A DNA stretch of 64,000 nucleotides from Siphonodentalium dalli (taxonomy: Eukaryota; Mollusca; Scaphopoda; Gadilida; Siphonodentaliidae): assembly GCA_032622095.1 (NCBI GenBank), contig CP136069.1, positions 32,894,194 to 32,958,193 on the forward strand, given 5' to 3'. The notes below the pieces were generated by a model. That model was not told the DNA's origin, did no database searches, and saw only the letters and a program-made list of their open reading frames with translations. Position 1 is the first letter of the stretch, and each line of letters opens with the position of its first letter. Both the position numbers and the translations under genes were made by a program. Of this stretch, positions 4,864-63,500 are shown in pieces.

Positions 4864-5158
4864 GATTTCCAAAATTCACGGTAAATAAAATTGTAACAAA
4901 TTAGACAGAGATATTGTGTGAGAATTGGCACCAATGTTCGATATAATATAATAAATAATGAATGTCTTGTCGTTGACTATGCCAAAATAGTGGTCCTCGA
5001 TGAGGAATAGTCCACTCGCCTGCGGCTCGTGGACTATTCCTCCTCGAGGACCACTATTTTGGCATAGTCAACTCCAAGCCATTCATTATCTATATAGTAA
5101 TACCAATCGCTATCTAATCGCGAAACCTGATTAAGTATATTTCGCTATCCAATCGTTT
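4864..5158. repeat. segment Z, inverted and displaced relative to copy 2
   Basis: This 295-bp block is the reverse complement of 59400-59694. In copy 1 it lies right of block Y, in copy 2 left of Y, while Y keeps its orientation. Its centre is a long palindrome (4955-5089). A simple inversion of Y+Z would also flip Y, so at least two events or a copy-and-insert event are needed. In copy 1, Z occupies the place where copy 2 has the lectin exon-bearing block V. Confidence 0.8.
4955..5089. repeat. 135-bp imperfect palindrome (foldback / MITE-like)
   Basis: Two 61-bp arms flank a 13-bp loop and pair at about 57 of 61 positions by eye. The arms start and end with ATAATGAATG / CATTCATTAT. The arm sequence around ACTATGCCAAAATAGTGG is perfectly mirrored. 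The same palindrome, flipped, is at 59469-59603. No transposase is encoded, and target duplications could not be defined. Confidence 0.8.
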
Positions 5159-5240: not shown

Positions 5241-5345
5241 CCGATAACCCCTGCCTGCACATGTACGCCGTTAACGCACTATGGGCTTAGGATATATTTA
5301 GACAACGTCATGTAAAGGTTCAAAATAGACTACGACATACTATAT
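5241..5345. repeat. inverted-repeat arm containing an unoccupied copy of the retrotransposon target
   Basis: This stretch is the reverse complement of the sequence that flanks the YR element (about 5424-5470 joined to 13804-13850). It therefore contains the uninterrupted target, read on this strand as GGATATATTTAGACAACGTC. The two arms enclose about 85 bp. The left arm is absent from copy 2, which has only a short unrelated sequence before ACATACTATATC. The pair forms a foldback structure into whose right arm the retrotransposon inserted. Confidence 0.75.
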
Positions 5346-5470
5346 CTTTTAAATGCATAGCACGGACAACTCACCTCTTACTGCGACAGCGATATATGAA
5401 ATACTACATGTATTCTAACGTGTTTGTCACTTTGACGTAGTCTATTTTGAACCTTTACATGACGTTGTTT

Positions 5471-5878
5471 AAATTACCATTGGAACATCGCTCCAAGGGT
5501 TGTATGTCTCCGTCGAGGCACCAGTAATTTTAAAATTCGCGCCGGTGATCTCGATTCTCACAGCGCGAGATTTTGCGAGAAACTACCGCTTCACAACTTC
5601 ACCTGCGAGCTTCCGACAAGAAAGCTGATGCAAGATGGTGCAATACTATCGGTAAATATATATTTCCTTCACAACGTTATAGATTGTTATTAAATCATTA
5701 ACCATCGTAAAGTTTTACGAGTAATTAGTTAGTCTAAATTAACTTCCAGCAAGTTATAGTTTACACTTGCGGAACTATATATTATACTGCGTAGGAATAC
5801 GCTAATTAACAACTGCGCACTTTCTTTCTATCTCCGATCTTCAAGGTGTGCAGTTCGCAAATTAAAAACTCCAAAACT
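5471..5878 (+). repeat. A1 split direct repeat of the YR retrotransposon
   Basis: This 408-bp repeat begins AAATTACCATTGGAACATCG and is matched at 12841-13248 with roughly six differences by eye. It forms the left end of the element. The initial AAAT is the core shared with the target. Confidence 0.92.
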
Positions 5879-5955
5879 GTTCTTGTTTTTCGAGGTAGGT
5901 ACCTACCGCCGAGCTCAAATTATATTCAGAATCTAAGTAAATAGTCCATTTCTTA

Positions 5956-6630
5956 ATGGCTTTTTACGTGCCACACAGGGAGATCCGTGTAGCCGTGGTT
6001 GGGCATTCATTCATTCGTCGCTTGGGTGAACAACTTGGCTACGCGGATCGCCATGGGTCGATTTTCAATGGTCATGATTTCTCGGGGGACCTCAGAATAC
6101 AAGCTTATCTGGGCATCCCGGTCAACATAAGATTTTTCCACAAAGGGGGTGCTCATGTCCCAGATCTGTTGGCATTACAAACAGAATTACGACAATTTTG
6201 ACCACATGCCATTATTTTGCAATGTGGATCCAACGATCTCTGTCGGAGCACCCCCACCTCAGTGGTGTCTGATATTCTCAGCATGTGCACCGTGTTCCGG
6301 AGCATAGCATCAGTAAAAAAGGTTTTAGTGTGTCATGCTATGCCCCGTTTGGCAGTGCGGGGCCATAAATCTATTGAAACTTATAATGGCCACGTTTCAG
6401 ACTTCAACGATCAGCTTAGTTGGGCCTTATCGCAAGCTACAGTGGCTTGGGAAACGTGGCCACATAGGCGTTTTATCGATGAGCCCCTGCATTTTAAATC
6501 GGACGGTGTACATTTATCTGGCCAGTCTCTGGTTTTGTACTTGGCCAGCATCCGGGATGCCATTTCTTATGGAATTGCGGCTTTATCTTGGTTAGCCCCC
6601 CCTTTGATGGCCCCCCTCAGAAATGCGTGA
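5956..6630 (+). pseudogene. SGNH-family hydrolase ORF of the YR retrotransposon, one in-frame TGA
   Basis: SGNH hydrolases are small esterases/lipases. Several Ngaro-group retrotransposons carry one, with unknown role in the life cycle (family knowledge). The frame opens with ATG at 5956 and shows block I at residues 13-18 (AVVGHS, nucleophile Ser), a glycine block (KGGAHV), block III CGSNDL just after 6217 and a terminal DGVHLS block with the Asp-x-x-His pair. All four signature blocks are therefore visible. A single TGA at 6199-6201 divides the otherwise continuous frame between the glycine block and block III; total length would be about 224 codons. It lies 78 bp after repeat A1 and 1.6 kb before Gag, the most 5' gene of the element. 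The TGA may be a recent nonsense mutation; readthrough cannot be excluded. Confidence 0.8.
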
Positions 6631-8212
6631 TCTTTGAAAGTACTCTTGCTTGTGTGATGACACGCAGGCTATTCTGCTTGCTCAATTTTAATTTTATGAG
6701 CTTGGCGGTGGGTGCCATTAGACCATCACCTTCAGCTCCACTGCTTTGCATGTCATTGTAAGTTGCTTGCTTTTCTGCTACTCTACTCAGATGTGCCTAT
6801 TAACGTGTCAAACAATGTTAATTTTGGGAATCTCCCAGCGATCATTATTTACAATTGGGTTCACTATATTTAATTTTAACCAATATTCACCCACCATTAT
6901 AGACCATCACGTTTTATAGGCAGCCATAACCGGATATTTCATTAAGCTCTCATTTGGTTATATTTTCATTTCACATATAATCACTGTTCTTTTGTGGGTC
7001 TGTCATTGCGACCATAACAATAAATACACAAAAAAAAATTCTTGATTAGTTGTGGCACATTTCAACTTTTACTTGTCAGCTTGAAGTTGTTTAGATTTTT
7101 AGACAGTGATTACGTTGTTATTGTTCAGATGAGTGAGCTAATGATTTTTCTCCTTACCGGTGCAGAGTTTGGTTTTGCTGAACTCTGGAGCTTGCTAGCA
7201 GTTTTTAAGGTGCTTAACCTTAAATTAACACAATGACTTCCGGTTCATTACCGGCACAGAGTTTTTGTTTTCGGAGCTTGTTGGCAATTTTACAGTCCCT
7301 AGCATTAAATTAGCACACCTCCTATGGGTTAGAATTGTTTCTCAGGCTCAATTGTTTTTCCTGCTTCGGTGAGATTTTTTACATCAAAGATATATATTAA
7401 AAAAAATATATATATATATATATAATAATAAATTAATTAACCAGCTCATTGTCCTATATGATGGCATCATGAGTGGCTAATTGTTAGCATTTTCCTTATT
7501 ATATATCTTTCCCCAAGACTCACCTCAATAGAAAGACAAGTCACCATAAATGTGGTTGTTTTCGCTACCCATGCATGTCAACATGTGTTTCGCATGTATT
7601 ATACATGACTTTATGCTTGTTTCTGCCCTTTTCAGCAGGTCAGATTGTAGCATTAGTTAATACACCGGTATGCAAGGGTTGCCAACCTTCAGTTGTATTT
7701 CCCTTATTTGAATATAATAACAAACACAAAACAAAAAGGATTTTTTTTTTCATACCGGTCAATTCCGGCATTTAATAATTGGTTAAAATAATGATAATTA
7801 ATTTTGGTCAATAATAATCTATTGTCATTTCAGGCTATACAATGCTGTGGTTTGGCAAACCCCATTTGCTTTATCAATTTCTGACTGGTTTGACATGTCA
7901 GCTGCACCCGCATTTTTACTTGTACATGTACCTGTATGGTGACTAAGCTTGAGCATACTGAATAATCTTTCTTACTCGAAACTAATTGCGTTGTCTCATC
8001 AACATTATGTCTTATGTGTTAGCATAAGGTAGTTCTTTTAATTCAATTGGTAATAGTCAAGGACTTGCACTTGAACATGTAGTTTTTCAACTACACCATT
8101 TTAAGTCACCACACAATGCAGATGTTCTGCCTTGGTATGCTCAAGCTTGGTTTCTTAATCTAAATTGATAACTTCATGCTTTTGACTGTCCTTAATTTTA
8201 CAGTGACTACCG
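6631..8212 (+). other. internal untranslated region of the retrotransposon
   Basis: I see no coding frame with family features between the SGNH ORF and Gag. The sequence is A/T-rich, with a T/A dinucleotide tract near 7400-7435, and repeatedly contains a (T/A)CCGG(T/C) motif. Two short stretches resembling each other (CCGGTGCAGAGTTTGG near 7157 and CCGGCACAGAGTTTTT near 7252) suggest a small internal duplication. It may hold the promoter or packaging sequences; nothing specific was recognised. Confidence 0.5.
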
Positions 8213-8230
8213 GTGACATCAATCCTTATC

Positions 8231-9809
8231 ATGGTGAAACCCAGCAAAACTGCTTCGGATCCTAAACGCAGGGGGCGTCCACCAGCAGCATCTCGGGCGC
8301 AACCACAGCCTACTCATTCAGTTTACTGCCAGCCTCAACCTGGTTTGGCTAGGTCTTCCTCCGTTCCTACCGGTTCATCTCCAGTCAGTACCAGTTCTGC
8401 CAGCTGCATTACGTCACCGTCCATTGGCTCTGCTTCGGCTCCTAATCGCAGAGGCCGCCCACCAGCAGCATCACATCAAGTTCATCATCAGCCTACACAT
8501 CCGATTACCTTCCAGCCTCATTCTGGGTTGTCTTGGACTCCTTCTGTTCCTGTTGGTTTTTCTCCAACCGTATCAGTTCTGCCACCTGTGTTACATCTCC
8601 ATCCAGTGGCTCTCTCCCAGTGTCTTCTGCTGAGCTGTCTTGGACTTCAACAATACCTATGGGTTATACTCATACCAGTTCGAGCTCCGCCACGCTTAGT
8701 ACATCTTCCTGTGGCTCTGTTCCGCTAACTCATACTGTTCCAGCATTACCAGTGACGGTGGTGTCAACATCGCTCGCGGGTGGCATTGGACAGCCTATCA
8801 GTCAGCCTTTTCTTCCATTGCCGGTCTCCGGTCTGACTTTTCCTGCCGCTTCGATTCAGCCTTCAGCCTATCAACAACATTCTTCACCCCCGGGACTTCA
8901 GTTGCCGTTCCCTCCGGAATAGTGCCCAACCAGCATGACTTGTCGATGCCGTGTAATACCTTCATGCCTCATCCGGTCGATGGTCTACATACACTCCCAG
9001 CTTCACCTGGAACCGGCCCGCTGTTCAACTCTGACATTCCTACCAGCATCCACGCTTCTGCGTCCGGTATGCCACTCTTAGACTTTGTGTCTTTAGCATC
9101 ACTTGATGCTCATGTTCCAAACAAATTACGTGCTCAGATTTGGGCTGACGAATTCGTCCCTATGATCTCTCTATTGCCCGACTACGAACACAATCCAACC
9201 GCATTTTCATTTGACATGGGATATCCGGGCGTTCAGGCATTTTTGACGCCTCCAAAACCTCCGAAAACAATTTCAGACATAAATCAGTGGCTTGATGCTT
9301 TTATCGTTTTCACAATTATTTACATTTCACGCCACCCTGAACAAATTACTAAACTACTCAGCTACATGATGCGTATTCGAAAAATGGCTCGTACAGGTTA
9401 TAACTGGTTTGCATATGATCGTCAGTTTCGGCTGATGAGGCAGTTCAACCCAAGTCTCTCATGGGACCATATCCAATGGGAGTTGTATATGCAAACCGCT
9501 CCACGGTTTCCAACTTTTTCAGCCAACAATCCAGAACGAGCAAAGCCACGTTTTCAAAATTCCACCAATCGTGCGCGTCAACCCATTCCGAACGGTTTTT
9601 GTTGGGACTTTCATCGGGGAAAAAATTGCTCCGGATGCAATTTTTCCCATTCCTGCTTTTTCTGCAAACAGCAGCATAGCTTCATTCGATGCCCGCGTCG
9701 AAATAAAAACCGTTCAGGCAATTTCAACACACAACAAAACAATCAGGCCAATCGCGCTGCGGGTCAATCAAAAACTTCCAACGCCAATACGGGTCCGAAT
9801 GTTAAATGA
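8231..9809 (+). pseudogene. Gag-like protein of the YR retrotransposon (frameshifted)
   Basis: Gag would package the element RNA. The frame starts at ATG 8231 (a GTG in frame lies 18 bp upstream). The N-terminal 170 codons are Pro/Ser/Gln-rich and hold two copies of an AT-hook-like motif RRGRPPAAS (around 8266 and 8441), each followed by a QPTH motif, so this part looks internally duplicated. The coding signal then moves to a second frame (8533-8922) and to a third (8922-9809). The last segment contains the conserved core and a Cys/His-rich C-terminus with a C-x8-C-x2-C-x3-H cluster followed by C-x2-C-x3-H-x4-C, resembling a zinc knuckle (roughly 9596-9690). At least two frame changes separate the parts. 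The Gag stop at 9807-9809 overlaps the start of the pol frame. Confidence 0.75.
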
Positions 9810-9810
9810 A

Positions 9811-10807
9811 ATGTTATCGGGTTACAGTCAACGAAAACGTGATTTCTTAATTGACGGATTCACAAATGGTTTCCGATTGGGTGTCAGGGGTGAAATATCG
9901 TCTCGCGAACCAAAAAAATTAGAAATCGGCTTTAGACTTTCCTGAAATAGTTCGTCGCAAACTATCACATGAACTGTTGGTGGGTAGAATTGCAGGGCCT
10001 CCTTTTAACGACCTTATAATCTCTCCAATCAGGGTTGTTCCCAAAAAAACAACCTGGGGAATTTCGTTTAATCCATAATCTGTCCTTTCCCGAGGGCGAC
10101 TCCGTAAATGATCATATACTCCCAGAGTGCAAGTCAGTTTCTTACTCTTCGGTTCAAAATGCTATCGCCATCATTCAGAAGCTTCCAAAAGGCTGCTTCT
10201 GTTCGAAAATTGATGTACTTTCTGCATTTAGGGTTCTCGCATCGCATCCGGACGATTATAGACTCCTAGGTTTCAAATTTGAAGGGAAATATTATTTTGA
10301 CAAATGTATGCCTATTGGGGCTTCTTCAAGCTGTCATAATTTTGAGGCTTTCAGCTCCTCATTGGAGTGGATAGCTCAAAACAAATTAGCTATACGTCAT
10401 TCCGTACACTATTTAGACGATTTTATTCTCCTGCTTCTTCTGAATCCATTTGTGAGGCGTATTTATCATCCTTCTTAACCATGTGTCATAATCTAGGTGT
10501 TCCCATTGCACATGACAAAACTGTGTCACCTACTACATGTATAACATTTTTAGGTATCCAACTGGACACAATTAACGTGTCTGCCTCTCTACCGCGTGAC
10601 AAAGTACAGCTATGCCTTTCAAAAATTGAAGTCTTAATAGGCAGAAACAAAGTGCCGTTACGTGAACTTTTGTCAATTATAGGTCTATTGAATTTCACTT
10701 GTTCTGTCATTCAGCCTGGGAGAGTTTTTCTCCGTCGATTAATCAACCGAACGATTGGAATTAAGAAATTACATCATCGTATTAGAATCACAAACGACGT
10801 CAGGTAG
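9811..10807 (+). pseudogene. reverse transcriptase domain of the YR retrotransposon (three frameshifts)
   Basis: The RT would copy the element RNA into DNA. The first segment (9811-9945) carries the conserved LIDGFTNGFRLG motif. After a frame change near 9935-9950 comes a part ending PIRVVPKK, and a further change at an A7 run (10043-10049) leads to the frame 10035-10478 with KIDVLSAFR (first catalytic Asp) and the YLDDF box (Asp pair). Around 10430 the frame shifts again into 10367-10807, which contains the thumb region (PIAHDKT, FLGIQLDT, GLLNFTCSVI). The final codon of this segment is a TAG at 10805-10807 in the same frame as the following RNase H; the TAG differs by one base from CAG. By family the protein would be one RT-RH polyprotein in a frame overlapping the end of Gag. 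Confidence 0.85.
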
Positions 10808-10810
10808 GAC

Positions 10811-11344
10811 TTGCATATCTGGCTTCTTTTTCTCCGACATTTCAACGGTACGTCTCTTTTTCTAAACCGGCAGTGGGCAACTTCCCGCACACTATCATTC
10901 TATACAGATGCAGCTGCTTCTGTCGGTTTTAGCGTAATTTTTCATAATGAGTTCTTTGCGGCTAAATGGTCTGACCGTGAAAAAACTTTGAATATATCTG
11001 TCCTTGAATTATATCCAATAGTGCTAGGGTTACATATATGGGCACATACTCTAAAAAATAGCTGCCTATTATTTTACTGCGATAATATTGCGGTGGTTTC
11101 TATCATAAACAAGCAAACAACTAAAGATCGTCACTTGTTGCTACTTTTAAGACAGTTGGTCTTGATATGTCTGACACATAATATACTGTTTAAGGCTAGG
11201 CACATCAGTGGTGTTTCTAATGATAAAGCGGACCTTCTGAGCAGAGGCAAATTTAAGCTGTTTAAGCATCTGTTTCCTTCTTTTCAGGAGGTATCTTTCA
11301 GTCTGCCAACCAAGCTCCATCTAGAGAGCTTACTGAGACTTTAA
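10811..11344 (+). CDS. RNase H domain of the YR retrotransposon
   Basis: RNase H degrades the RNA strand of the RNA:DNA hybrid during reverse transcription. The usual acidic residues are visible in order: Asp in FYTDAAAS, Glu in LELYPIV, Asp in YCDNIAV and Asp in SNDKADLLSRG. It is in the same frame as the preceding RT segment and separated from it only by a TAG, so it is probably the C-terminal part of one RT-RH protein. The frame closes with TAA at 11342-11344, while the recombinase frame is already open, giving an overlap in different frames that is common in this group. Confidence 0.85.
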   Translation: MHIWLLFLRHFNGTSLFLNRQWATSRTLSFYTDAAASVGFSVIFHNEFFAAKWSDREKTLNISVLELYPIVLGLHIWAHTLKNSCLLFYCDNIAVVSIINKQTTKDRHLLLLLRQLVLICLTHNILFKARHISGVSNDKADLLSRGKFKLFKHLFPSFQEVSFSLPTKLHLESLLRL

Positions 11345-11364
11345 ATTTTTTACTTTCTCGTTCA

Positions 11365-12402
11365 TTGGCTTCTTCTACACAGAAACAGTACTCAACGGCA
11401 TTGAATCATCTGGTATCATTTGGTCTGGCTACACGCCTTCCGCTACACATTCCATTATCTAGTGATACAATCTGTTTATTCATATCGTATTTGTATCGTA
11501 AGGGTTTAGCAGCTAGTACAATTACCAGTGCTATTTCAGCGGTTGCCTTTGTGCACAAAATAAGAAATGCACCAGACCCAACTCAAGCTTTCATAGTAAA
11601 GAAGATCTTAATGACCATTCGCAGACTACTTCCTGTTTGCGATGTTCGTTTACCTATTACATTAAATATACTTAATAGGCTTCTCTCTGCAGTATCCTTT
11701 TTGGGCATTTCAGTTTTTATGCAGAAACTACTCGCGGCAGTTTTTACTACTGCCTTTTTTGCTATGGCCCGAATCGGTGAGATTTGTCCAAATAATCATG
11801 CTAACAATGACAAAATTTTACAATTGAGCGATTGCAATGCTTCCGCCTCAGACTTTACCTTAATTTTTAGAATATTCAAACACAACAGTGATGGCCGTCC
11901 TCACTTCATTCAGTTATTTTCTCAAACACCATTAAAACCATGCCCAGTTGAAAATTTAAAGGCTTTTTTGTGCATTAGAGGCAATCACCCAGGTCCTCTC
12001 TTTTCTTATCCGGATGGGCAACCTTTGTTGCGACACAAATTTGATAATCTCCTCAAACAGTGTTTAACCATATGTAATCTAAACAGCAAACTCTTTCTGT
12101 CACATAGCTTCCGCATAGGCGTTGCATCATGGGCGGCAGACTTAGGATATTCAGATTCACAGATAAGACGTATGGGTCGTTGGAAATCGAACGCTTTCCT
12201 CCGATACATTCGCCCTTCACCACTATCCCAAAAGCTGAGTTGGTTCTCCTGCATTTCCTCCTTCGTGTTCAGATTACCATTCACAGTGTATCACTTGTAT
12301 ATAATGTTTCTTGTTGATTACGTGATGGCTAATTGTTTTTATATTATACTTTCTCGACTATCCGTCCTCTATAATGTGATATATTTTGTGATTTGGTGCT
12401 GA
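11365..12402 (+). CDS. tyrosine recombinase (integrase) of the YR retrotransposon, intact
   Basis: The YR would insert the circular DNA form into the genome by strand exchange through a covalent phosphotyrosine. The 345-codon ORF contains the complete catalytic set: Arg136 in MARIGEI, His247-x-x-Arg250 in HSFRIG, Trp273 in GRWKSN, and the nucleophile Tyr281 in FLRYIRP. The N-terminal core-binding part (STQKQYSTALNHL) is present too. The listed start at 11365 is a TTG; the frame is open upstream over the end of RNase H (with PSRELTET), so the real start or frameshift junction probably lies near 11285-11340. No interruption is seen, unlike the rest of the element. Confidence 0.9.
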   Translation: MASSTQKQYSTALNHLVSFGLATRLPLHIPLSSDTICLFISYLYRKGLAASTITSAISAVAFVHKIRNAPDPTQAFIVKKILMTIRRLLPVCDVRLPITLNILNRLLSAVSFLGISVFMQKLLAAVFTTAFFAMARIGEICPNNHANNDKILQLSDCNASASDFTLIFRIFKHNSDGRPHFIQLFSQTPLKPCPVENLKAFLCIRGNHPGPLFSYPDGQPLLRHKFDNLLKQCLTICNLNSKLFLSHSFRIGVASWAADLGYSDSQIRRMGRWKSNAFLRYIRPSPLSQKLSWFSCISSFVFRLPFTVYHLYIMFLVDYVMANCFYIILSRLSVLYNVIYFVIWC

Positions 12403-12680
12403 CACACCCAATGGTGTTTATTCAAAGTGTTCATTCAAAGTTTGCAACAGTTTATTTTTCGCATGTATCTTTTTGTTATACATGCTCTTACTATATAGTT
12501 TATTCACGTTATTTAAGCTCAATTTTTTGGTGCTACGTTTATGCATACTGCCTCATTATCATAGCTTTTCTTTCGAGCATGGAACACCCCCCCCCCAGTC
12601 GTGTCTCTTCCGGTTCCAGTGGGTTGAGACTTTGTCAAGCTTATACTGTCTTAAAGAGGGTATTTGCTTGCCAATGTCTC

Positions 12681-12840
12681 GTGGCGTTTTTGAACCCACT
12701 GTTCATATGTTTTTTAACATTTACTTGGCTACCTTTATCTTATTTATTATGTGAACCATATATACATATTTTTTGTTATATAAAGGTAGTCCACATCTGC
12801 AATAGATCTTGATCAACCCTTTACGCCAAGCCGGGGAGAT
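12681..12840 (+). repeat. B1 split direct repeat of the YR retrotransposon
   Basis: This 160-bp repeat begins GTGGCGTTTTTGAACCCACTG and ends GCCGGGGAGAT. It abuts A2 directly. The copy at 13649-13807 differs by a few substitutions and one indel in a T-run. The 278 bp between the recombinase stop and B1 contain no gene; a short C-tract is near 12589. Confidence 0.92.
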
Positions 12841-13248
12841 AAATTACCATTGGAACATCGCTCCAAGGGTTTTATGTCTCCGTCGAGACACCAGTAATTT
12901 TAAAATTCGCGCCGGTGATCTCGAGTCTCACAGCGCAAGATTTTGCGAGAAGCTACCGCTTCACAACTTCACCTGCGAGCTTCCGACAAGAAAGCTGATG
13001 CAAGATGGTGCAATACTATCGGTAAATATATATTTCCTTCACAACGTTATAGATTGTTATTAAATCATTAACCATCGTAAAGTTTTACGAGTAATTAGTT
13101 AGTCTAAATTAACTTCCAGCAAGTTATAGTTTACACTTGCGGAACTATATATTATACTGCGTAGGAATACGCTAATTAACAACTGCGCACTTTCTTTCTA
13201 TCTCCGATCTTCAAGGTGTGCAGTTCGCAAATTAAAAACTCCAAAACT
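12841..13248 (+). repeat. A2 split direct repeat of the YR retrotransposon
   Basis: This is the second copy of the 408-bp left repeat. The B1/A2 junction GGGGAGAT-AAATTACC is the sequence expected when the element circularises end to end, which is how this group is thought to regenerate its complete termini. Confidence 0.92.
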
Positions 13249-13648
13249 TTTTCCCCCACCACCCCTTCGACCACCTTCATTCCATGCTCTTAGATAAGTT
13301 CTTTTTTACAATTACCGATATGTCAATGGGAAAGTTTTCATTGTCAAGGTTCACATGTCTAATCTATAGGTTATCGCATCCACGTAAACCCCAAATGTAC
13401 ATCACGGTTTATATTTGTCTGTCCCTCACGAGCCGTCATTTCTTTCCCATTGTCATACCTAATTTCTCATTTACCGGGTAACTGGTCGGTTTTATGTACT
13501 TAAGTCTCAGACCTTTCCTTCAAACCAGATTTCATCTATTTCTGGTTTCACCTTTGAAACTACTGGTACTGTTACTGGATTTTATCATTATACACTTAAT
13601 TTCACTGCCGACTCGTTATCCGGTTATTTCATTTTCATTTCATTAAAG
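13249..13648 (+). other. A2-B2 spacer of the YR retrotransposon
   Basis: This 400-bp unique sequence lies between the two right-hand repeats. I see no family motif; a short frame at 13284-13481 is not supported. It contains an oligo-C/CA stretch at its start (13252-13262). Confidence 0.6.
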
Positions 13649-13807
13649 TGGCGTTTTTGAACCCACTGTTCATATGTTTTTTAACATTTACTTGGCTAAC
13701 TTTATCTTATTTATTATGTGAACCATATATACATAATTTTTTTTATATAAAGGTAGTCCACATCTGAAATAGATCTTGATCAACCCTTTACGCCAAGCCG
13801 GGGAGAT
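13649..13807 (+). repeat. B2 split direct repeat, right end of the YR retrotransposon
   Basis: Second copy of B1. It ends GGGGAGAT and is followed at once by AAATATATCC, the host sequence also seen uninterrupted at 60782, which fixes the right boundary. Confidence 0.92.
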
Positions 13808-16101
13808 AAATATATCCTAACGGCGTATATATGCAGGCAGGGGTTTGGCTACCGGAGGCAGTTTAAAGTTATAGCTTCATCAATCATTCCATGCCTGGTA
13901 CATGGGTTGAATTTGTTCTTATCATTTGATATTCCAACAATTATTTAATGTGAAAGTTGATGTATGTAGACCAAAAGTATAATATTTCCTGAATTTCGGT
14001 CAAATAATTGGTATGAAATGACAATCATTTGGAAATATCCTTTCGTAGGTAGAGTCGTTCGGAAATTTCCAACATTAGGAAAACTTGAGACATAATAAAC
14101 ACTATTAGAGTATATAGTAACTGTATAGTGTTTATGGTATACCCGTACCGACATATCGGATGTCTTTGATATAAGGTGCCTGTTAGGATACTTTCACAGA
14201 CCTGCGGCTGACACAATTATGCAGCCAATGCATGCGGCTATCGTGTTATACATGTACATGTAGGCGCAACGTTTCAAACCCTACATATATCACTGCATGC
14301 AGTTGCGGCTGAAGCATCCGCATGTCTGTGAAAGCAGCTTTATCCTAACTTATTGGCGCTTGACGACTAAAATACGTATTCAAAGGTACGATTCTCGGGC
14401 TCAGTGGAATAAATCACTTCTTTCTTTCAAGGTTGTGGACATTCCATGTGAGTCATCATCGCGTACTTAGTCTGATGGCCGATTTAAAGTGATGTGAAAC
14501 ACTCCAGTATGGTGATCAACTAGAATTGGAGAATAATCTTGCTACAGGTAGTTATTTTTACAAATATTATATCCAAATTGACAAACACACATCGTCATTC
14601 TTATATATTAATGAGATGCAGTGACTTTCGAGTTTATCACAGATATTTGCGTCCCGAAACGAGAAGTAAATATTTACAATTGAGCGTAGTTCAGACGATG
14701 TTTTCTATGGAGTGGCACGGTCGATTTATTTGCGATCTTCGGCGATATTAATAGAATTTTACATTCGTCTAGTTGGCGCAGTGTACTAACTTATCAGTTA
14801 TCACGCACCCGAACAAGTCCATAGCATCTCATTAAATTCTACATCGAGGATCCTTTTACACATATCAATTAAGAAATGGCCATTTAATAAACATACAAAG
14901 CTTACATAATACATTCCGAAAGAACATTGCCTATGTCCCTCCATGGTGTAGAGACCAGTCCTACCTAACTATCAAGATAAAAAAAAGATTCTCTTTTGAG
15001 AAGGCTTCAACAGCCTGTAAACTATGCCGCACACTTCGGCTATATCCTTCACATTGATGTTACAAGAAAACGATAGTCAGAAACGGTAACCCCCTCAACA
15101 TAATATTATTAGGCATGTTTAAAATATATTGGAGCTTTAACGCAGTGATTGTGAAAAAAATGTGTATATACATGTAGGTAACTGCATTGCAGTTGATTAT
15201 ACATATATGTAATAGTTTGACGTGTATGTCTGTATAGCGTGCGCTTGGTGAAAAGGTGCAAATATGTTTTAAATGGGACACACCAAACTACGGTCATGAT
15301 AATTATGAAATGTTTACACATGCGTATGATATATATTCACAAAGGGTGCATACGTTCCAGTGGGTTGAAAGGTACATTACCAAACATGCAACGGTCATTG
15401 GATTTATACACCAGTAATCACACACCAATTGCCAAAAGAAGTGACGAACGCCTTGACGATTGACACCTTATTATGCCTACGGCCTGCCAGCATGCGGCAA
15501 ATACACTAAACTGTTAGTTTCTCGGTTTTCTTATACGACATTTGAATTGCTTTCGACTGGCATTTATCTTTTCTTTGTTATTTGTTCTAATTTATATTGA
15601 AATAGAGCTCTGAATTGTGGATGGAATTTCATGCAGAATAATAATCAGGCAAACAGTGTCGATCTTCGTCACATTGTTCAAGTACGCAAATACCGAGTAC
15701 GTTTCTAACCAAAATTAGTACATCCAAGTATGCAGCTACCGAGTACGTTTTTAATCACATTTAGTCCATCACCTCCTACGACAGGGCCATGTATGCTTGC
15801 CAAGCTACAACCTAAGACGGTGTAACAAAGAACTAGTAGGGATAAAGAATGAATAAATTATCAGTGTCCATGATGCCATTTATATTATTGTATTAGTCGC
15901 CTGAGGTAATCGTCACTTATTGCAAAACACTCTCTGGATAAAGTTGATAATAAACGTTTTTATCGCTAAATATTATTTCCTCTTTAAGTCATATGCGTCA
16001 ACGGCAGTTATCCCAATACACCCCGTGTCAAATTACTTATGTATGCCAGTTTCCCAACATATATTACGAGCTGATAGTATAGACGCTCTTCATATATCAT
16101 T

Positions 16102-28574: not shown

Positions 28575-30059
28575 ACGTGGCAGTTTTCAACACATGAGAT
28601 TGGTATCTCCCCTTGCCAAAGATCACGAATAATGGCGGACAAATTTGTCAGAAAATATTTAACAGATCTAAGTTATTTTAACCGTACTATCGTTTGTAAT
28701 TCGTAACCAAGCAGGCACGCATTCCTGAAAGTTTCGCGTCATTATTTATGCATATTTCTGGTGTTGTCGGACATTTAGCTTTGGCCTGTCTTCACAAAAT
28801 CACAACTGAAAATCGATATTTTCGATCCAATTTGAACAGTGGTGACAGCTTGTATTGACCTAGTATTAAAGTGGTGGCGTACATAGCACTGCGAATAGTG
28901 CTTAATCAACTGTGCCATTGTGAGTAATGTAAATCTTCGTCACATTTGTCATTGAGTCATGACCAGATGTCAGATAACCAGCCCAAAATGGAAAGCCTGA
29001 TTCGTATGTGTCAGTTATTTACATTAGGCCTGAACAATGATGATGTTTCCGGTAACCTACAACCCATAGTCTAGACATCAGCCCCTACTAATTTTAATAA
29101 CACTGGGAACAAATATAACAAAAGCAATAACCGAAACATAACAAAAATCAAATTTATCGATAGTTGATTGTAGTAAAACTGTGCTGATTAGTCACCGGTC
29201 TGCATTATTTACACTGAAATTTGGGGTTGGCCGGCACCCGTGTGTATACGGGCCAGTTCAAAAACCAGGTTCTTATTAAAATTAATGCCAGGCATATTTA
29301 TCCCTTCCAATAAATACTCACAGTAATGTGCTTATTGTGTTCTGTTATAAATGTACAGTACGTATCATCTGTTTTGCAATGTCAAAAATGTCAAAAAACT
29401 AATTTAATTAATGTTCACTCACCTGACCATACTATTTTTTCCTTCCGTTACTGGATACATCACTATTTGTTTTTAGGCGTGAGTGTGGTTTCGCAACTAA
29501 TGGATAGAGTTACGACTACATTTGCCAGTTCGTAGTTGTTAATACATGTGGGGCCAAAAAGTAATATTGCAACAATGACAACGGTTGTACTTACTGAATA
29601 GAGTAAATTCATGGATAATTGTTCGCAGTGATATTTTCACTATGGTTTATCTACAATGTTCTTATTTTCAGTATTAACAACCCTCCAACGACAATATTTC
29701 GCATATCAAAACAATTGTTGTGTAAAATTACTGTTACGGTCAGAGTGGCATTGTCAATGTCTAATTAGTCCAATAAGATACATTTTTGTATAAAAGGTCA
29801 AATTATTAATAAATATTATAATAATAATATTTAGACTATTTTATTTGAATTTACTTCACGATTAGAAATGTTTGTTGACAAATGACTGTAACAGTTCTGA
29901 TTACATAACGATGGTTTCAATGTGCGTCATTTTGTTATTTGAGAACTATCAATAATTGATATATCGTAGTTATAGTTAATCGAGTTGCACAATTGTATCC
30001 ATCGACATACCACACATAATGGTGAACTACCAACCCCTACAGGGGCGGAGCTCACCTTT

Positions 30060-30146
30060 AGGGCTACAACGATACACATGGTCACGATACGATATGAATC
30101 ACGGTAATGGTCAACGATACGATACATATCACGATACACTAAATTA
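30060..30146. repeat. hAT-type terminal-repeat-like sequence (unit 1)
   Basis: GGGCTACAACGATACAC is followed by several CACGATACGATA-type words. Similar ends (AGGGCTGCAACGAT..GATACGATA) are typical of non-autonomous hAT elements in animals (family knowledge). A related sequence in reverse orientation is at 44550-44656. I found no matching partner end or 8-bp target duplication, so this is probably a fragment. The same sequence recurs at 36200-36286. Confidence 0.4.
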
Positions 30147-31000
30147 GTGTTTCCAAATAAATACAACCTGAACTAGAGGTCAGATTCCATGGAATCAGAT
30201 ATACTTCCATGGTATCCCATCCCATCCCATGTGAGTGTTATGCGTATATGTGTATTCCTCTTCATGCGAATGCATATTGGTGCTTAAAGGATTTATTCGG
30301 TCTAGAAACTACAAAACGCAATCGGAAAGCCCTCCCTGTTGTGATTAAAATGATCCAAGTCCCATTCCGATCGCATAATAAATAACCCGTAAAATAAATA
30401 AATAATACCATCACCGGTATTCGGAGATTTCCGTGACTAAACTACGAGTGACGTACTTGTGGGGAGCAAATTAAAAACACACATTCGGAGCCGGAGTTTA
30501 TTATGCAGACTACGATGACGTAATCGTAAGTCAGTCGATACTAAAATGAGTCGTATGTGCGCGTGTGGTGTACAGATTACGTTACGCTTTGGCCGTTTAT
30601 CTGGAATAGAAGACAATAATTATGTGAATACAGTAATTAATAGCGCCTAGAATGGTTGTTGTTTTTGTAGCCATTAATAACATGCCGGCACGTGTCTGTT
30701 TTGGTGAATAGATGGCAGTATTAGTGCTTTGATTGTCTCGCGTATTCACTCGGTGATTTGTAATCACTCAGCGACTATTCATCAGTGTCATTCGCTAACT
30801 TGTTTGCACTCTAAAATGCCACAAAGTGAATAGAAAGAACATTATCTCTCTGGGCATACTTATATAAGAAGCGCCCAAATTTATATAAACACTGGGCTGA
30901 ATAATGTTAACTCTATTTAGGCGCTTTTGTTTTGTGTTTGTTTGCTGTTTTACTTTCGATATAAATATCCCGAGTATCTGTCATCGCCACATATTCCAAG

Positions 31001-31090
31001 ATGCCTAGTAGATGTAGTGTGTTCAGTTGTGGGCGGGCTAGCGATCCATTATTTAGTACCTCCAAAAAGACAACACAGTGCGTAATTTAG
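31001..31090 (+). pseudogene. THAP-like N-terminal stub (unit 1)
   Basis: A 29-codon frame begins MPSRCSVFSCGRA, the kind of N-terminus seen in THAP zinc-binding domains, where the first Cys pair is spaced by two to four residues. Here it is C-x4-C at residues 5 and 10. The frame ends soon after at TAG, before the second half of the domain. A TATATAAG sequence lies about 150 bp upstream (near 30862). It could be an eroded piece of a THAP-type DNA-binding or P-element-related gene; the match is too short to be certain. Confidence 0.25.
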
Positions 31091-31265
31091 AACGCTCTTT
31101 ATTGTCTACCACTTTTGGGAGACGGAAGCATGGACGCTCTTTATATTTAATTGTCACAATACCACATACAAAATCACCCATGACATATCGAAATAAAGCA
31201 CGTTCATAATTGAGAACGCTCTTTATTGTCTACACCGCGACGAAAACATGGACGCTCTTTATTAG
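31085..31265. repeat. ~120-bp direct repeat with GAACGCTCTTTATTGTCTAC
   Basis: The words GAACGCTCTTTATTGTCTAC and ATGGACGCTCTTTAT occur twice in the same order (31091/31130 and 31213/31249), indicating a short tandem duplication. The same block is in unit 2 at about 37225-37405. Confidence 0.6.
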
Positions 31266-33382
31266 AGGCAATCATTGGAGTTTTGCTATGCTAACAATTC
31301 AAAAAAATCCTCTCTAGAAAGTCAATATGTGCCATCAAAACGTAAAATAAAACGAACAACAAACACAAACTGAAAAACAATGCCAGGCTAGCCTTCAATT
31401 AAAAAAATGTCATTATGCCAAACTGCAGCCTAACTAATAATTTTTGTAGTTTCAACAGTCTGTTGTGTATTCGAGTGAATTATTTTGTTTACTCACTTAT
31501 CGATCTTGACTGGAAGGATTTTAGCAAGCTGTTCACAGTCGTGCACTTCTCCACACAAAATGTTTCGTGTGAAGAAACAGACAGGAACATCATTATGACG
31601 AATATAAGCCATCATGATACATGTACTAGTACAATAACCACCACCTTTTTAATCGCACCCCATTTGTATTTAAAATTATAGCGCACAACGGGATGACACT
31701 AGTGTGTAAACTATCCTCCGAAATTGGTACCATACAACGAAGAATGAAGTACCGGCATATGGCCTAACTTGTATTCTTTCAGAAACAGTTAAATTTGTTT
31801 CGCACGATATTCCGCTCGCTCATTGCATTTCTGCATAAATTAATCTCATTTCAAACAACTTTTATCGCCTCAAAGTGATTTTAGCCATCATTATTCGTTA
31901 TATAATCCAACATTCTAGCAAATCCAGTTCATAATTCAGCACATTCAAACAGTTTTATTCCGTAATCGCTATTTATCGTAAAGGCTTAGGTAATTAACCA
32001 GCGTAATTTATCAACTCGTTACGCGATTGGCGGAATTATTTCAAGCTCCATCCACCGCTGTCATCGGTAAGCGTTGATGCAGATGATCGGTCATGTGACC
32101 GCGTTGTGGTCATGTGATCGCACTCACGTGACTGACTTCGGATATTTCCGCGATTTTTTTAATATCATAATAATAAAAATACTATCTGCTCGATTTTGAA
32201 TTTTCTTGGCGAAATGGGTCTGTTAGACATATATTATTAGTATTATGACGATAAAAAAAATATTTTTTTGACAGACTAATTCCTTTAATGATCCGATGGT
32301 GGACTTGCATTGACATTTCTAAATAATAAATATACTCCAAAGGTGTATGTCATGATGATTAATGACTCTCTAATGCATCATGGTCCTGACCAACTGAGTC
32401 ACCATTCACCCAGCCAATCAGTTAATTTGTATTCAGTAGGGATACATTTTATGGCTAATTATAACCGCTCCCCTGGATGCCCAAATCCTGTTCAACGGTC
32501 ACGAAATTTGGTGTGCCTGATTATACAGTAATCGGCATGTATATATATCAAAAGGGTGCAAATCATATTAATGTAAAATAACTCCGTTATATCGCATTTA
32601 GTGGATAGTACTTTCAGTTTCGGATTCAGAATTGTTTGTTTTAATGGAAGAGGAAAGACCGCTTATCAATTAATTCAGAGCGTCATCGCCACACTATACC
32701 CATTAACTTCTTTGTAATAGAGTTAACAGTAATCAAGATATAACTATATCACAATCGATAATGTCATCTGAGTGCTTGCCCGTCCGTTTTAAAACTAATG
32801 GTGATCGTATATATACTACCAAACACATGCATTGTTCAAAATATAAAACACTAGATTGAGTAGATTCGCGATTTTCCATTGTTTCGCGCTCTCCTCGGGC
32901 AGGTTACTTTCATGGTAGAGCAGTAAAACTTTGGGGGCGTATCTATGGTATATCGTTGTACCTGCTCGTGCATTAGCTTGCTCCTTGATAAACCCGTTTG
33001 AATTTGGCATCAATAATAGTGCGGTTGAATTTGAGTAATATATTTCACCCGTTAACAATGTTACGCGCTACCAGGATTAAACGGTCCACTCTAAAACTTA
33101 TCAATCGTTCGAAAGTTGCACCTGGATACTGCTGACCACGTCAACAAATTTTTTTGTCAAAGTTTGATTTTTTAAGTAATTTTCCACATTTGTTTCCGGT
33201 GGAATTTGCCAAGTCTGAACCCACCCGACGCAAGCACTCCGCTGAGCATACATCTTGGAGACGTACCTACAGTATACCGACGTACATGCTCCTGCATTAA
33301 ACTAGATCTTTATTTACACGTTTGGATTTGGGGCTACAATTAGGTTAGTGATAGACTACTTAAGTATAAATATTTATATTAT

Positions 33383-33800
33383 ACTAGCAGGGTGACCCGA
33401 CTTCGTCCGTGCTGTTTACCCTATTGACAATTTTGAAGGTCAAGGTCAGGTCGGGGTCTCGATTTGACCCGTGTAAAACATGCCCACGACAAAATTACCC
33501 CTAGGTATCAATTTCATCAAAATCCCGTCCAAAGGCGCGATTTGACCTTGAATTGACCATTTTAAAGGTCAAGGTCAGGTCGGGAACACAATTTTACCGG
33601 TCCAAAAACGTACCCATAGGTATCAAATTTCGTGGAAATCCATCCGTTTTACACGATTTGACATTGAATTGACCATTTTTAAAGTCATGGCCAGGTCGAG
33701 GTCAAAAACACTCCCCGGACAAAAGCACCCTATATATCAAATTTCGTCGAAATCCGTCCGGCAGTTTTCCCGGCCATACCTAACAGACAAACAGACAGAA
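33383..33800 (+). repeat. RTE/SINE-like dispersed repeat with GGTCAAGGTCA boxes (unit 1)
   Basis: The repeat starts ACTAGCAGGGTGACCCGACTT and ends in a GACAAACAGACAGA tail. This resembles the ends of invertebrate RTE-related SINEs (family knowledge, low certainty). Inside are three units of about 115-130 bp, each containing (A)AAGGTCAAGGTCAGGTCG or a variant (about 33434, 33564 and 33681), followed by CAAATTTCGT.GAAATCC. The paired AGGTCA half-sites resemble nuclear-receptor response elements, but this is only a sequence resemblance. Unit 2 has the same repeat at 39524-39941. Confidence 0.5.
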
Positions 33801-34270
33801 GTCCCAAAATATGTAGTAGATAGCGTTGTCACGAGTAAACCGATCCATCTGAATATTCGAAAATGGCACTTTAGATGCGCGTGAAAACTACCCATCAGAT
33901 GTACTCGTCAAAATGTTTTTATCTCGATGTTTGAATTTTGCCCCTTTGCGATTTTCGGTGGAATTTACCAAAAGTCTCAACCCACCCCATCTTGCATTCT
34001 CCGCTGGGTAGGTTACTTTTAAAGTATAGCTGTCAAGATTTGGGGGGGGGGCGTGAATAAAATATCCAAATGTACCTGCTTCGGCATTACCTTGCTCTTT
34101 AATTAGCCCTTTTGGATTTGGTGGGAAGAATAGGTGCATTTTCCCGTTCCCCGTATAGCGGAAAGGGGTATATATAGTCACGCATTTCAATCAGTTTGGA
34201 TATAAAGTTAAAATATACACAGTTATATGCCTATATATTTAATACTAATATATTTTCTTATATATTAACA

Positions 34271-34354
34271 GCGTAGTGCGTAGCCGAGTGGTGAGAGCGT
34301 CAAACCCTCAGTTTGTGTTTTATTGCGACGTGAGTTCGAATCCCGTCAAATTAT
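34271..34354 (+). ncRNA. tRNA-like sequence with A and B boxes (unit 1)
   Basis: TAGCCGAGTGG at 34281-34291 matches a Pol III A box and GAGTTCGAATCCC at 34332-34344 a B box. Between them lies a CAAAC..GTTTG stem and a longer variable region, as in Leu/Ser-type tRNAs. T-rich runs follow (from about 34363), which could terminate Pol III. The anticodon loop does not have a clear U33 and the acceptor ends do not pair well, so it is more likely a tRNA pseudogene or the head of a SINE than a functional tRNA. Confidence 0.5.
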
Positions 34355-37140: not shown

Positions 37141-37230
37141 ATGCCTAGTAGATGTAGTGTGTTCAGTTGTGGGCGGGCTAGCGATCCATTATTTAGTACC
37201 TCCAAAAAGACAACACAGTGCGTAATTTAG
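37141..37230 (+). pseudogene. THAP-like N-terminal stub (unit 2)
   Basis: Identical copy of the 29-codon frame in unit 1, with the same C-x4-C and the same early TAG. Confidence 0.25.
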
Positions 37231-39523
37231 AACGCTCTTTATTGTCTACCACTTTTGGGAGACGGAAGCATGGACGCTCTTTATATTTAATTGTCACAAT
37301 ACCACATACAAAATCACCCATGACATATCGAAATAAAGCACGTTCATAATTGAGAACGCTCTTTATTGTCTACACCGCGACGAAAACATGGACGCTCTTT
37401 ATTAGAGGCAATCATTGGAGTTTTGCTATGCTAACAATTCAAAAAAATCCTCTCTAGAAAGTCAATATGTGCCATCAAAACGTAAAATAAAACGAACAAC
37501 AAACACAAACTGAAAAACAATGCCAGGCTAGCCTTCAATTAAAAAAATGTCATTATGCCAAACTGCAGCCTAACTAATAATTTTTGTAGTTTCAACAGTC
37601 TGTTGTGTATTCGAGTGAATTATTTTGTTTACTCACTTATCGATCTTGACTGGAAGGATTTTAGCAAGCTGTTCACAGTCGTGCACTTCTCCACACAAAA
37701 TGTTTCGTGTGAAGAAACAGACAGGAACATCATTATGACGAATATAAGCCATCATGATACATGTACTAGTACAATAACCACCACCTTTTTAATCGCACCC
37801 CATTTGTATTTAAAATTATAGCGCACAACGGGATGACACTAGTGTGTAAACTATCCTCCGAAATTGGTACCATACAACGAAGAATGAAGTACCGGCATAT
37901 GGCCTAACTTGTATTCTTTCAGAAACAGTTAAATTTGTTTCGCACGATATTCCGCTCGCTCATTGCATTTCTGCATAAATTAATCTCATTTCAAACAACT
38001 TTTATCGCCTCAAAGTGCATTTTAGCCATCATTATTCGTTATATAATCCAACATTCTAGCAAATCCAGTTCATAATTCAGCACATTCAAACAGTTTTATT
38101 CCGTAATCGCTATTTATCGTAAAGGCTTAGGTAATTAACCAGCGTAATTTATCAACTCGTTACGCGATTGGCGGAATTATTTCAAGCTCCATCCACCGCT
38201 GTCATCGGTAAGCGTTGATGCAGATGATCGGTCATGTGACCGCGTTGTGGTCATGTGATCGCACTCACGTGACTGACTTCGGATATTTCCGCGATTTTTT
38301 TAATATCATAATAATAAAAATACTATCTGCTCGATTTTGAATTTTCTTGGCGAAATGGGTCTGTTAGACATATATTATTAGTATTATGACGATAAAAAAA
38401 ATATTTTTTTGACAGACTAATTCCTTTAATGATCCGATGGTGGACTTGCATTGACATTTCTAAATAATAAATATACTCCAAAGGTGTATGTCATGATGAT
38501 TAATGACTCTCTAATGCATCATGGTCCTGACCAACTGAGTCACCATTCACCCAGCCAATCAGTTAATTTGTATTCAGTAGGGATACATTTTATGGCTAAT
38601 TATAACCGCTCCCCTGGATGCCCAAATCCTGTTCAACGGTCACGAAATTTGGTGTGCCTGATTATACAGTAATCGGCATGTATATATATCAAAAGGGTGC
38701 AAATCATATTAATGTAAAATAACTCCGTTATATCGCATTTAGTGGATAGTACTTTCAGTTTCGGATTCAGAATTGTTTGTTTTAATGGAAGAGGAAAGAC
38801 CGCTTATCAATTAATTCAGAGCGTCATCGCCACACTATACCCATTAACTTCTTTGTAATAGAGTTAACAGTAATCAAGATATAACTATATCACAATCGAT
38901 AATGTCATCTGAGTGCTTGCCCGTCCGTTTTAAAACTAATGGTGATCGTATATATACTACCAAACACATGCATTGTTCAAAATATAAAACACTAGATTGA
39001 GTAGATTCGCGATTTTCCATTGTTTCGCGCTCTCCTCGGGCAGGTTACTTTCATGGTAGAGCAGTAAAACTTTGGGGGCGTATCTATGGTATATCGTTGT
39101 ACCTGCTCGTGCATTAGCTTGCTCCTTGATAAACCCGTTTGAATTTGGCATCAATAATAGTGCGGTTGAATTTGAGTAATATATTTCACCCGTTAACAAT
39201 GTTACGCGCTACCAGGATTAAACGGTCCACTCTAAAACTTATCAATCGTTCGAAAGTTGCACCTGGATACTGCTGACCACGTCAACAATTTTTTTTGTCA
39301 AAGTTTGATTTTTTAAGTAATTTTCCACATTTGTTTCCGGTGGAATTTGCCAAGTCTGAACCCACCCGACGCAAGCACTTCGCTGAGCATACATCTTGGA
39401 GACGTACCTACAGTATACCGACGTACATGCTCCTGCATTAAACTAGATCTTTATTTACACGTTTGGATTTGGGGCTACAATTAGGTTAGTGATAGACTAC
39501 TTAAGTATAAATATTTATATTAT

Positions 39524-60532: not shown

Positions 60533-63500
60533 CTATAACAAATAATACAATAACATGACTGATGTAGGAAAACGGTCACAGGCATATGCAGCTATAGATA
60601 CACAGGGTTAGTTCAACCACGTCAAACTTCCCATTTCATGCATCGACATACTATATCTTTTAAATGCATAGCACGGACAACTCACCTCTTACTGCGAAAG
60701 CGATATATGAAATACTACATGTATACTAACGTGTTTGTCACTTTGACGTAGTCTCTTTTGAACCTTTACATGACGTTGTCTAAATATATCCTAAGCACAT
60801 AGTGCGTTAATGGCGTATATATGCAGGCAGGGATTTGGCTACCGGAGGCAGTTTAAAGTTATAGCTTCATCAATCATTTCATGCCTGGTGCCTGGGTTGA
60901 ATTTGTTCTTATCATTTGATATTCCAACAATGTTTTAATGTGAAAGTTGATGTTTGTAGACCAAAAGTCGAATATTTCCTGAATTTCGGTCAAATAATTG
61001 GAATGAAATGACAATCATTTGGAAATATCCTTTCGTAGGTAGAGTCGTTTGGAAATTTCCAACATTAGGACAACTTGAGACATAATAAACGCTATTATAT
61101 AGTAACTGTATAGTGTTTATGGTATACCCGTACCGACATATCGGATGTCTTTGATATAAGGTGCCTGTTAGGATGCTTTCACAGACCTGCGGCTGACACA
61201 ATCATGCAGCCAATGCATGCGGCTATCGTGTTAAACATGTACATGTAGGCGCAACGTTTCAACCCCTACATATATCACTGCATGCGGTTGCCGCTGAAGC
61301 ATCCGCATGTCTGTGATAGCAGCTTTATCCTAACATATTGGCGCTTGACGACTAAAATACGTATTCAAAGGTACGATTATCGGGCTCAGTGGAGTAAATC
61401 ACTTCTTTCTTTCAAGGTTGTGGACATTCAATGTGAGTCATCATCGCGTACTTAGTCTGAGGGCCGATTTAAAGTGATGTTAAACACTCCAGTATGGTGA
61501 TCAACTAGAATTGGAGAATAATCTTGCTACAGGTAGTTATTTTTACAATATTATATCCAAATTGACAAACACACACCGTCATTCTTATATAATGAGATGC
61601 AGTGACTTTCGATGGCGAAATCGTTTTCTTAGTTTATCACCGATATTTGCGTCTTGAAACGAGAAGTAAATATTTACAATTGAGCGTAGTTCAGACGATG
61701 TTTTCTATGGAGTGGCATGGTCGATTTATTTGCGATCTTCGGCGATATTAATAGAATTTTACATTCGTCTAGTTGGCATAGTGTACTAACTTATCAGTTA
61801 TCACACACCCGGAAAAGTCCATTACATCTCATTAAATGCTACATCGAGGATCCTGTTACACATACCAATTAAGAAATGGCCATTTAATAAACAAACAAAG
61901 CTTACATAATACATTCCGAAAGAACATTGCCTATGTCCCTCCATGGCGTAGAGACCAGTCCTATATAAAAAGCTTCTCTTCTGGGGACTTCAACAGCCTG
62001 TAAACTATGCTAGCACACTTCGGCTTTTTCCTTCACATTGATGTTACAAGAAAACGATAGTCAGAAACGGTAACCCCAGCAACATCATATTATTAGGCAT
62101 GTTTAAAATATATTGGAGCTTTAACGCAGTGATTGTGAAAAAATGTGTATATACATGTAGGTAACTGCATTGCAGTTGATTATACATATATGTAATAGTT
62201 TGTGTATGTCTGTGTAGTGTGCGCTTGGTGAAAAGGTGCAAATATGTTTTAAATGGGACGCGCCAAACTACGGTCATGATAATTATGAAATGTTTACACA
62301 TACGTATGATATGTATTCACAAAGGGCGCATACGTTCCAGTGGGTTGAAAGGTACATCGCCAAACATGCGACGGTCATTGCATTTATACACCAATAACCA
62401 CACTCCAATTGCCAAAAAAGTGACGAACGCCTTGACGATTGACACCTTATTATGCCTACGGCCTGCCAGCATGCGGCAAATACACTAAACTGTTAGTTTC
62501 TCGGTTTTCTTATACGACATTTGAATTGCTTTCGACTGGCATTTATCTTTTCTTTGTCATTTGTTCTAATTTATATTGAAATAGAGCTCTGAATTGCGGA
62601 TGGAATTTCATGCAGAATAATAATCAGGCAAAAAGTGTCGATCTTCGTCACATTGTTCAAGTACGCAAATACCGAGTACGTTTCTAACCAAATTTAGTAC
62701 ATCCAAGTACTCGGCTATCGAGTACGTTTTTAATCACATTTAGTCCATCACCTCCTACGACAGGGCCATATATTCTTGCCAGCATACACCATACGAGGGT
62801 GTAACACAGAACTAGTAGGGATAAAGAATGAATAAATTATCAGTGTCCATGATGCCATTTATATTATTTTATTAGTCGCCTGAGGTAAACGTCACCTAGT
62901 GCAAAACACTCTCCGGATAAAGTTCATAATAAACGTTCTTTATAGCTAAATATTATTTCCTCTTTATGTCATATGATGTCAACGGCACTTATCCCAAGAC
63001 ACCCCGTGTCAAATTACTTATGTATGCCAGTTTCCCAACATACATTATGCGCTGATAGTATAGACGCTCTTCATAGATCATATATGTTAATATAATTTAA
63101 TATATCCCCGGTCAGTCATCTGAGATCAACGACATCTTTCTCGTTGTGTTCCCTTGACCAGGTGACCCATGTGTACCAATGTTCCTACATATCATCTAAG
63201 CTGGCAAAGAACGCACTTATTGCTAATATATTATACCTTGTTTAAGTAATCTAAGATCAGAGGCACCCATGCCATGATATTTACCTGACCAGGTGACCAC
63301 TGTATACCAATTTTTCTACATATCGTCTAAGCTGACTAGGAACGCTCCTTAATGCTCACATATTAATCCTAGTTCAAGTCATCTGAGGTTAAAGGCGCTC
63401 GTCTCTTGATATTCACATGGTCTTATGACCCGTGTCTATTAATGATCCTGAACCGATAAGGAACACTCTTTTGTACTTATATATTATAAATAGCTGGGTT

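Follow-up and report, generated by a model that had tools for sequence, protein, structure and literature searches.

In the classical exchange catalyzed by tyrosine recombinases the nicks are separated by several bases; where the overlap between them contains mismatches, a heteroduplex arises, which should yield two classes of descendants, with the crossover at either edge. The present analysis concerns a stretch of 64,000 nucleotides from the scaphopod Siphonodentalium dalli (contig CP136069.1, positions 32,894,194 to 32,958,193; "the window" hereafter denotes this whole stretch) and the Ngaro-type retrotransposon that it carries, whose putative circular form is very probably joined to chromosomal sites resembling TAAA(T/A)A at one fixed base, designated A4, with neither duplication nor loss at the junction.

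As far as the parts of the literature consulted here go, Ngaro elements consist of split direct repeats in the order A1-[ORFs]-B1A2B2 around their open reading frames (ORFs), encode a reverse transcriptase (RT), an RNase H and a tyrosine recombinase, and occur also as solo A-B copies, isolated AB repeats being known for the Cafeteria Ngaros (PMC8547959), features in which the S. dalli element is like them; Ngaro elements are described as lacking a methyltransferase (PMC4157794), and an SGNH domain is reported in Ngaro-like elements of Xenopus (PMC9210276). With the DIRS1-like elements it has in common the circle-junction model and the absence of a target duplication, but these elements have inverted repeats and internal complementary regions, and the published account gives their integration step as a model that needs an identical 3-bp core in the target (PMC3266345). 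The bacterial DNA elements Tn916/Tn1549 likewise integrate a circle by means of a tyrosine recombinase and require a single base pair of homology, but their crossover region is a heteroduplex of 5–7 nucleotides that becomes homoduplex after transfer and has no fixed point (PMC5871717). The integration of integron cassettes (attC x attI) resembles the process proposed below in involving one strand, one crossover point, an AAC microhomology and resolution by replication; its substrate, however, is a folded single-stranded attC (PMC4792948), and no sign of such a substrate was seen in S. dalli. What distinguishes the latter from the described Ngaros is that its crossover can be resolved to one base; no such base-level map was found in the passages of the literature consulted, and an earlier description, for instance in the main reviews, is possible.

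The element interrupts copy 1 of a host region that is duplicated within the window, copy 2 retaining the uninterrupted site. The positions of the core are numbered p1–p5, A4 being the A at p4, and the features on which the comparison relies are the following:

5470..13811, plus strand, Ngaro-type element including both core copies (p1–p5 read TAAAT at 5470-5474 and at 13807-13811)
5470..5881, plus strand, direct repeat A1, left end (98.5% identity to 12840-13251)
12681..12844, plus strand, direct repeat B1 (97.6% identity to B2; overlaps A2 on the internal TAAAT, 12840-12844)
12840..13251, plus strand, direct repeat A2 (98.5% identity to A1)
13648..13811, plus strand, direct repeat B2, right end (97.6% identity to B1)
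60772..60791, plus strand, empty target site in duplication copy 2, unbroken GACGTTGTCTAAATATATCC, with the core TAAAT at 60781-60785

The earlier note on this DNA had described the two copies as a before/after pair differing by an insert of about 8.34 kb, and this description is borne out, the net insert in copy 1 being 8337 bp; the empty site exists as well, although its position had been given as 60773-60792, one base off. The left junction in copy 1 reads GACGTTGTTTAAAT at 5461-5474 and the host picks up from 13807 with TAAATATATCC, no remnant of the element being seen at the empty site in copy 2 (60772-60791). A single substitution adjoins the core (GTTGTT in copy 1, GTTGTC in copy 2). 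That no bases were lost is true at the junction but not over the whole flank, copy 1 being without 16 bp of copy 2 (GCACATAGTGCGTTAA) located 9 bp past the right core. The pair had further been taken as direct evidence that nothing was duplicated; the window pair alone cannot show this, since TAAAT is the sequence of the target as well as of the element and no position is informative. A core of any length from 1 to 5 bases is compatible with the pair, and so, no less, is a target duplication of 4–5 bp. It is the other copies, namely 25 pairs of ends and 10 pre-insertion sites, that support both the absence of a target duplication and a recombinase-style integration.

These copies were obtained by searching the source genome with each end of the element, which gave at least 40 A and at least 43 B matches falling into 33 clusters (40 of 78 candidates were scored in the A search and 40 of 87 in the B search, the copy numbers being lower bounds), while exact patterns added to the A and B searches gave 46 matches each. 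The sample is biased toward copies close to that of the window. The left pattern, which required AT at p4–p5, was the source of six left ends (C1_163, C1_1718, cl7, cl8, cl13, C5_2015) and the right pattern, which required T at p1, of three right ends (cl19, cl25, C7_113), those of cl19 and cl25 being found in this way at a distance of about 0.95 kb from their left ends. After removal of duplicates (cl22, with the same flanks as cl19, and L041, with the same flank as L040) and of the B1A2 matches, which were counted as internal junctions and not as ends (L004, L006, L019, L025, L030, L037, L043, L044), 31 left and 30 right ends were retained, from which 25 pairs could be formed. Left ends are unpaired in cl21, cl23, cl32, C1_163, C1_1718 and C5_2015, no right end of cl21, cl23 or cl32 being found in the wide stretches searched; right ends lack a left end in cl0, cl3, cl5, cl10 and cl27.

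The internal B1|A2 junction reads TAAAT in 24 of 25 junctions, from 24 copies, the exception being TGAAT in cl18. At the outer ends, between-copy variation is distributed unequally: it affects p1–p3 chiefly at left ends and p5 at right ends only. Thus, the 31 left ends have at p1 T 21, A 5, C 3 and G 2, at p2 A 24, G 4 and T 3, and at p3 A 24, T 6 and C 1, with A at p4 in 30 (G in one) and T at p5 in all; the 30 right ends have T at p1 throughout, A 29 and G 1 at p2, A 28, C 1 and T 1 at p3, A at p4 throughout, and T 17, A 11 and G 2 at p5. Among the 25 pairs, p1–p3 differ from TAA at the left end only in 13, at the right end only in 1, at both in 2 and at neither in 9, and a p5 other than T is found at ten right ends and at no left end. 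The difference between the two directions, 13 against 1, has a p of 0.0018, the directions having been counted after the asymmetry had already been noticed in the same data. As to the two pairs changed on both sides, cl19 lies in a TA tract and shows no clear direction, and the empty sites place cl31 in the common class.

The pre-insertion sequence could be read for 10 insertions, nine of which have informative positions, 13 in all. Five paralogues read for cl2 have TATAT (7 near-full-length rows were fetched out of 83 matching rows, and 5 of the 7 were read); TGAAT was found in 5 of 5 paralogues fetched for cl12 (out of 9 full-length ones) and AGAAT in 5 of 5 fetched for cl26 (out of 40). For C7_113, with 10 of 40 fetched, the site is TATAT in nine, a comparison suggesting that the G at p4 of its left end is a later change. 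The insertion cl20 lies in a long interspersed nuclear element, 13 of its 20 matching rows outside its own flanks having been fetched, and its nearest paralogue, at 84% identity, reads TAAAA. Both cl4 and cl8 lie in tandem arrays whose units provide the empty site; in the array of cl4 six complete uninterrupted units comprise five with TAAAA and one with CAAAA, a further TAAAA unit being truncated where the stretch ends. The insertion cl18 is situated within another copy of the same element, and the window site, TAAAT, has no informative position. Finally, all seven paralogues of cl31, each of which was fetched, read ATTAA, a target that has only A4 in common with the element core.

In all 10 pre-insertion sites p4 is A, the only core base common to all. 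At the informative positions the left end has the target base at p1–p3 and the element base at p5 in 13 of 13 cases, and the right end has the element base at p1–p3 and the target base at p5 in 12 of 13, p2 of cl31 alone departing from this pattern. Comparison of the ends with their targets places the exchange at the fixed point A4, with nothing duplicated or lost, and shows that a match of the remaining core is a preference and not a requirement. The AAAT core that had been proposed does not hold as a rule: with p4 taken as A, the target is AAAT in 7 of 25 pairs, TAAAT in 3, and other than AAAT in 18, that of cl31 sharing A4 alone.

The preference, scored against flanking composition, is for TAAA(T/A)A at p1–p6, with p between 0.002 and 5e-14 per position, that at p4 being taken from right ends, whose base at this position may be that of the element; outside p1–p6 there are deviations at p12 (p=0.0003) and p8 (p=0.014), uncorrected for the 46 positions tested. 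The position of the window target within a fold-back repeat, together with the resemblance of the cl2 flanks to inverted repeats, raised the possibility that hairpins or cruciforms are targeted; it was rejected, since the 25 joined targets fold no more strongly than 1500 window controls of similar guanine-cytosine content (p=0.54, as predicted with RNA parameters over 100 bases).

The pathway that we propose would begin with a circle of complementary DNA whose joint, GAGA-TAAAT-TACC (B|A), is probably templated by the internal B1A2 junction. The recombinase would then link the circle to the chromosome at a site similar to TAAA(T/A)A. In the left product, target sequence extends through p3 and element sequence starts at p5; in the right product, element sequence extends through p3 and target sequence starts at p5. 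Because mixed cores nearly always resolve in one way, the nicks would overlap by at most one base or, alternatively, a single strand exchange would be inherited and replication would resolve the other strand.

Several observations weigh against this reading. The main one concerns cl13, which has A at both ends, although its three paralogues, all of which were fetched, have T at p4 (they are diverged, with 78–79% identity); A4 may accordingly be non-universal, or the target base at p4 may undergo conversion to that of the element. In cl20, the sole reversed pair, the right end is TACAA, its C being taken as a mutation from the paralogue at 84% identity, which is not a proof. The right p2 of cl31 is a G that matches neither target nor element, one of the ten paralogues of C7_113 has TACAT, with C at p3, and cl19 shows TAT at both ends within a (TA)n tract. 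The right ends of cl25 and C7_113 come from the pattern that required T at p1, and without them the ratio of the two directions becomes 11:1. The Pfam matches of the element ORFs all remain under the curated cut-offs. Furthermore, the fixed crossover is read from the alignment of ends and sites, the circle, the activity of the recombinase and the strand steps being putative.

Among the alternatives, the one that survives best is a classical two-strand exchange with an overlap of 3–5 bp, as in the DIRS1 model, followed by segregation or repair of the core heteroduplex. The resemblance of the TAAA target preference to the circle core is in its favor, as is the published 3-bp model (PMC3266345); yet identity is unneeded, 22 of 25 targets differing from TAAAT when p4 is taken as A, and random segregation would give approximately equal directions instead of the 13:1 observed. 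A strand-biased mismatch repair could be the source of the one-way resolution and would rescue this explanation, which we consider possible but doubtful.

A very improbable alternative is that copy 2 once carried the element and lost it by excision, of which tyrosine recombinases are capable with precision. Between the two host copies of the duplication, 239 of 4454 aligned bases are different (5.4%, counting in one palindromic block aligned at 85%), against 10 of 576 (1.7%) between the A1/A2 and B1/B2 repeats of the element; because the element repeats differ less, the duplication seems to have preceded the insertion, and copy 2 has probably never carried the element, its empty site being a true one. 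Empty paralogues or array units exist for nine other insertions as well. Weakest of all, and scarcely tenable, is the action of a DDE-type or LTR-like (long terminal repeat) integrase making a target duplication of 4–5 bp, with the AAAT at both ends as the duplication: the window pair fits it fully, with TAAAT at each end of the element and a single TAAAT in the empty site, but when the other copies are checked, as had been advised, just 4 of the 25 pairs have the equal left and right 5-mers that a 5-bp duplication demands, and just 8 have equal 4-mers, left p4–p5 and right p1–p2 are near-invariant between insertions and are hence element-derived, and the recombinase ORF is that of a tyrosine recombinase.

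The fixed crossover at A4 belongs to an element whose Ngaro-like structure, claimed previously, is corroborated by the order of the split direct repeats, A1-ORFs-B1A2B2, and by similarities to a tyrosine recombinase, RT and RNase H, those of RT and RNase H being under curated cut-offs; it is on these grounds that it is assigned to the Ngaro type. Its coding parts are:

6202..6630, plus strand, ORF weakly like SGNH/GDSL hydrolases (Pfam Lipase_GDSL, E=0.015, under the curated cut-off)
8207..9809, plus strand, ORFs in gag position, proline/serine-rich and then with a Cys/His-rich end, by eye
10020..10807, plus strand, RT over two frames (first piece Pfam RVT_1, E=7.8e-6, under the curated cut-off; YLDD by eye)
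10808..11344, plus strand, RNase H-like region (Pfam RVT_3, E=0.0036, and RT_RNaseH, E=0.0088, both under the cut-off)
11326..12258, plus strand, tyrosine recombinase ORF (PHROG integrase phrog_1, E=5.3e-8; Cre weakly, E=0.025)

The recombinase is recognized by Pfam weakly (Phage_int_SAM_1, E=0.019, under the cut-off), the motif residues R, HSFR, GRW and Y being visible by eye; a structure predicted for this piece without an alignment had a mean predicted local distance difference test score of 37 and was not used. The ORFs at 8207..9809, which gave no Pfam match at E 0.001, would represent gag by their position. The second RT piece has no Pfam match, and the window copy is broken, its RT being split between two frames; no methyltransferase match was found with Pfam among the seven ORF pieces of this broken copy that were scanned. 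Other identities were rejected: the terminal repeats are direct and not inverted as in DIRS1-like elements, the RT similarity does not suit a Crypton (a tyrosine recombinase without RT), and both the pairs and the tyrosine recombinase speak against an LTR retrotransposon, with its short DDE-made duplication.

Some copies are too short for ORFs. A-B copies of about 0.95 kb, comparable to solo LTRs, are found at G000 C5:260646402-260647342, C3:276598512-276599452, C8:154376652-154377620 and C3:194809446-194810409, and one of about 1.9 kb with the order A-B-A-B (cl29, G000 C9:74916317 onward) may have arisen by deletion or, alternatively, represent a short circle in dimeric form. Extra B pieces about 110 bp apart at two B2 ends (G000 C4:2764651-2765024 and C8:166310255-166310511) suggest tandem growth inside the B repeat. 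In cl15 (G000 C5:94452322-94454685) a second B end lies 2.2 kb downstream, the right flanks L040 and L041 being alike over the bases printed, and is probably due to a local duplication spanning the right junction.

The host sequence around the window insertion has one further feature that the earlier note does not mention: the target forms one of the two arms of a fold-back repeat, and its 20-mer recurs in inverted orientation at 5290-5309.

5246..5337, minus strand, second arm of the fold-back host repeat, with an intact second copy of the target at 5290-5309, minus strand

Fold-back or palindromic host repeats occupy 5246-5474 and 13808-13845, 58506-58587 and 4951-5093 of the window, which also contains, at 28575-40863, a tandem duplication of about 6.1 kb with 99.7% identity.

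A one-sided resolution may be general beyond this family. In our own count of Table 3 of the DIRS1 study, a table made for another purpose, the start and end trinucleotides are unlike in 10 of 28 elements, and in the 8 of those 10 that have a 3-bp junction the triplet matching the junction is at the start in seven and at the end in one, AcasDIRS1 (PMC3266345). We tentatively suggest, as a conjecture that is rather unlikely as it stands, that Ngaro elements, and perhaps all of the DIRS order, integrate through the exchange of one strand at one base, this exchange alone being inherited, with resolution by replication as in integron cassettes and a need for identity at one base pair as in Tn1549. 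The element itself belongs to a known kind, and it is the fixed crossover, placed to one base with the aid of 10 pre-insertion sites, nine of them with informative mismatches, that is worth following; it brings the question of strand exchange within reach of sequence data from other families. If the suggestion is true, a retrotransposon of eukaryotes would depart from the two-strand pathway of tyrosine recombinases.

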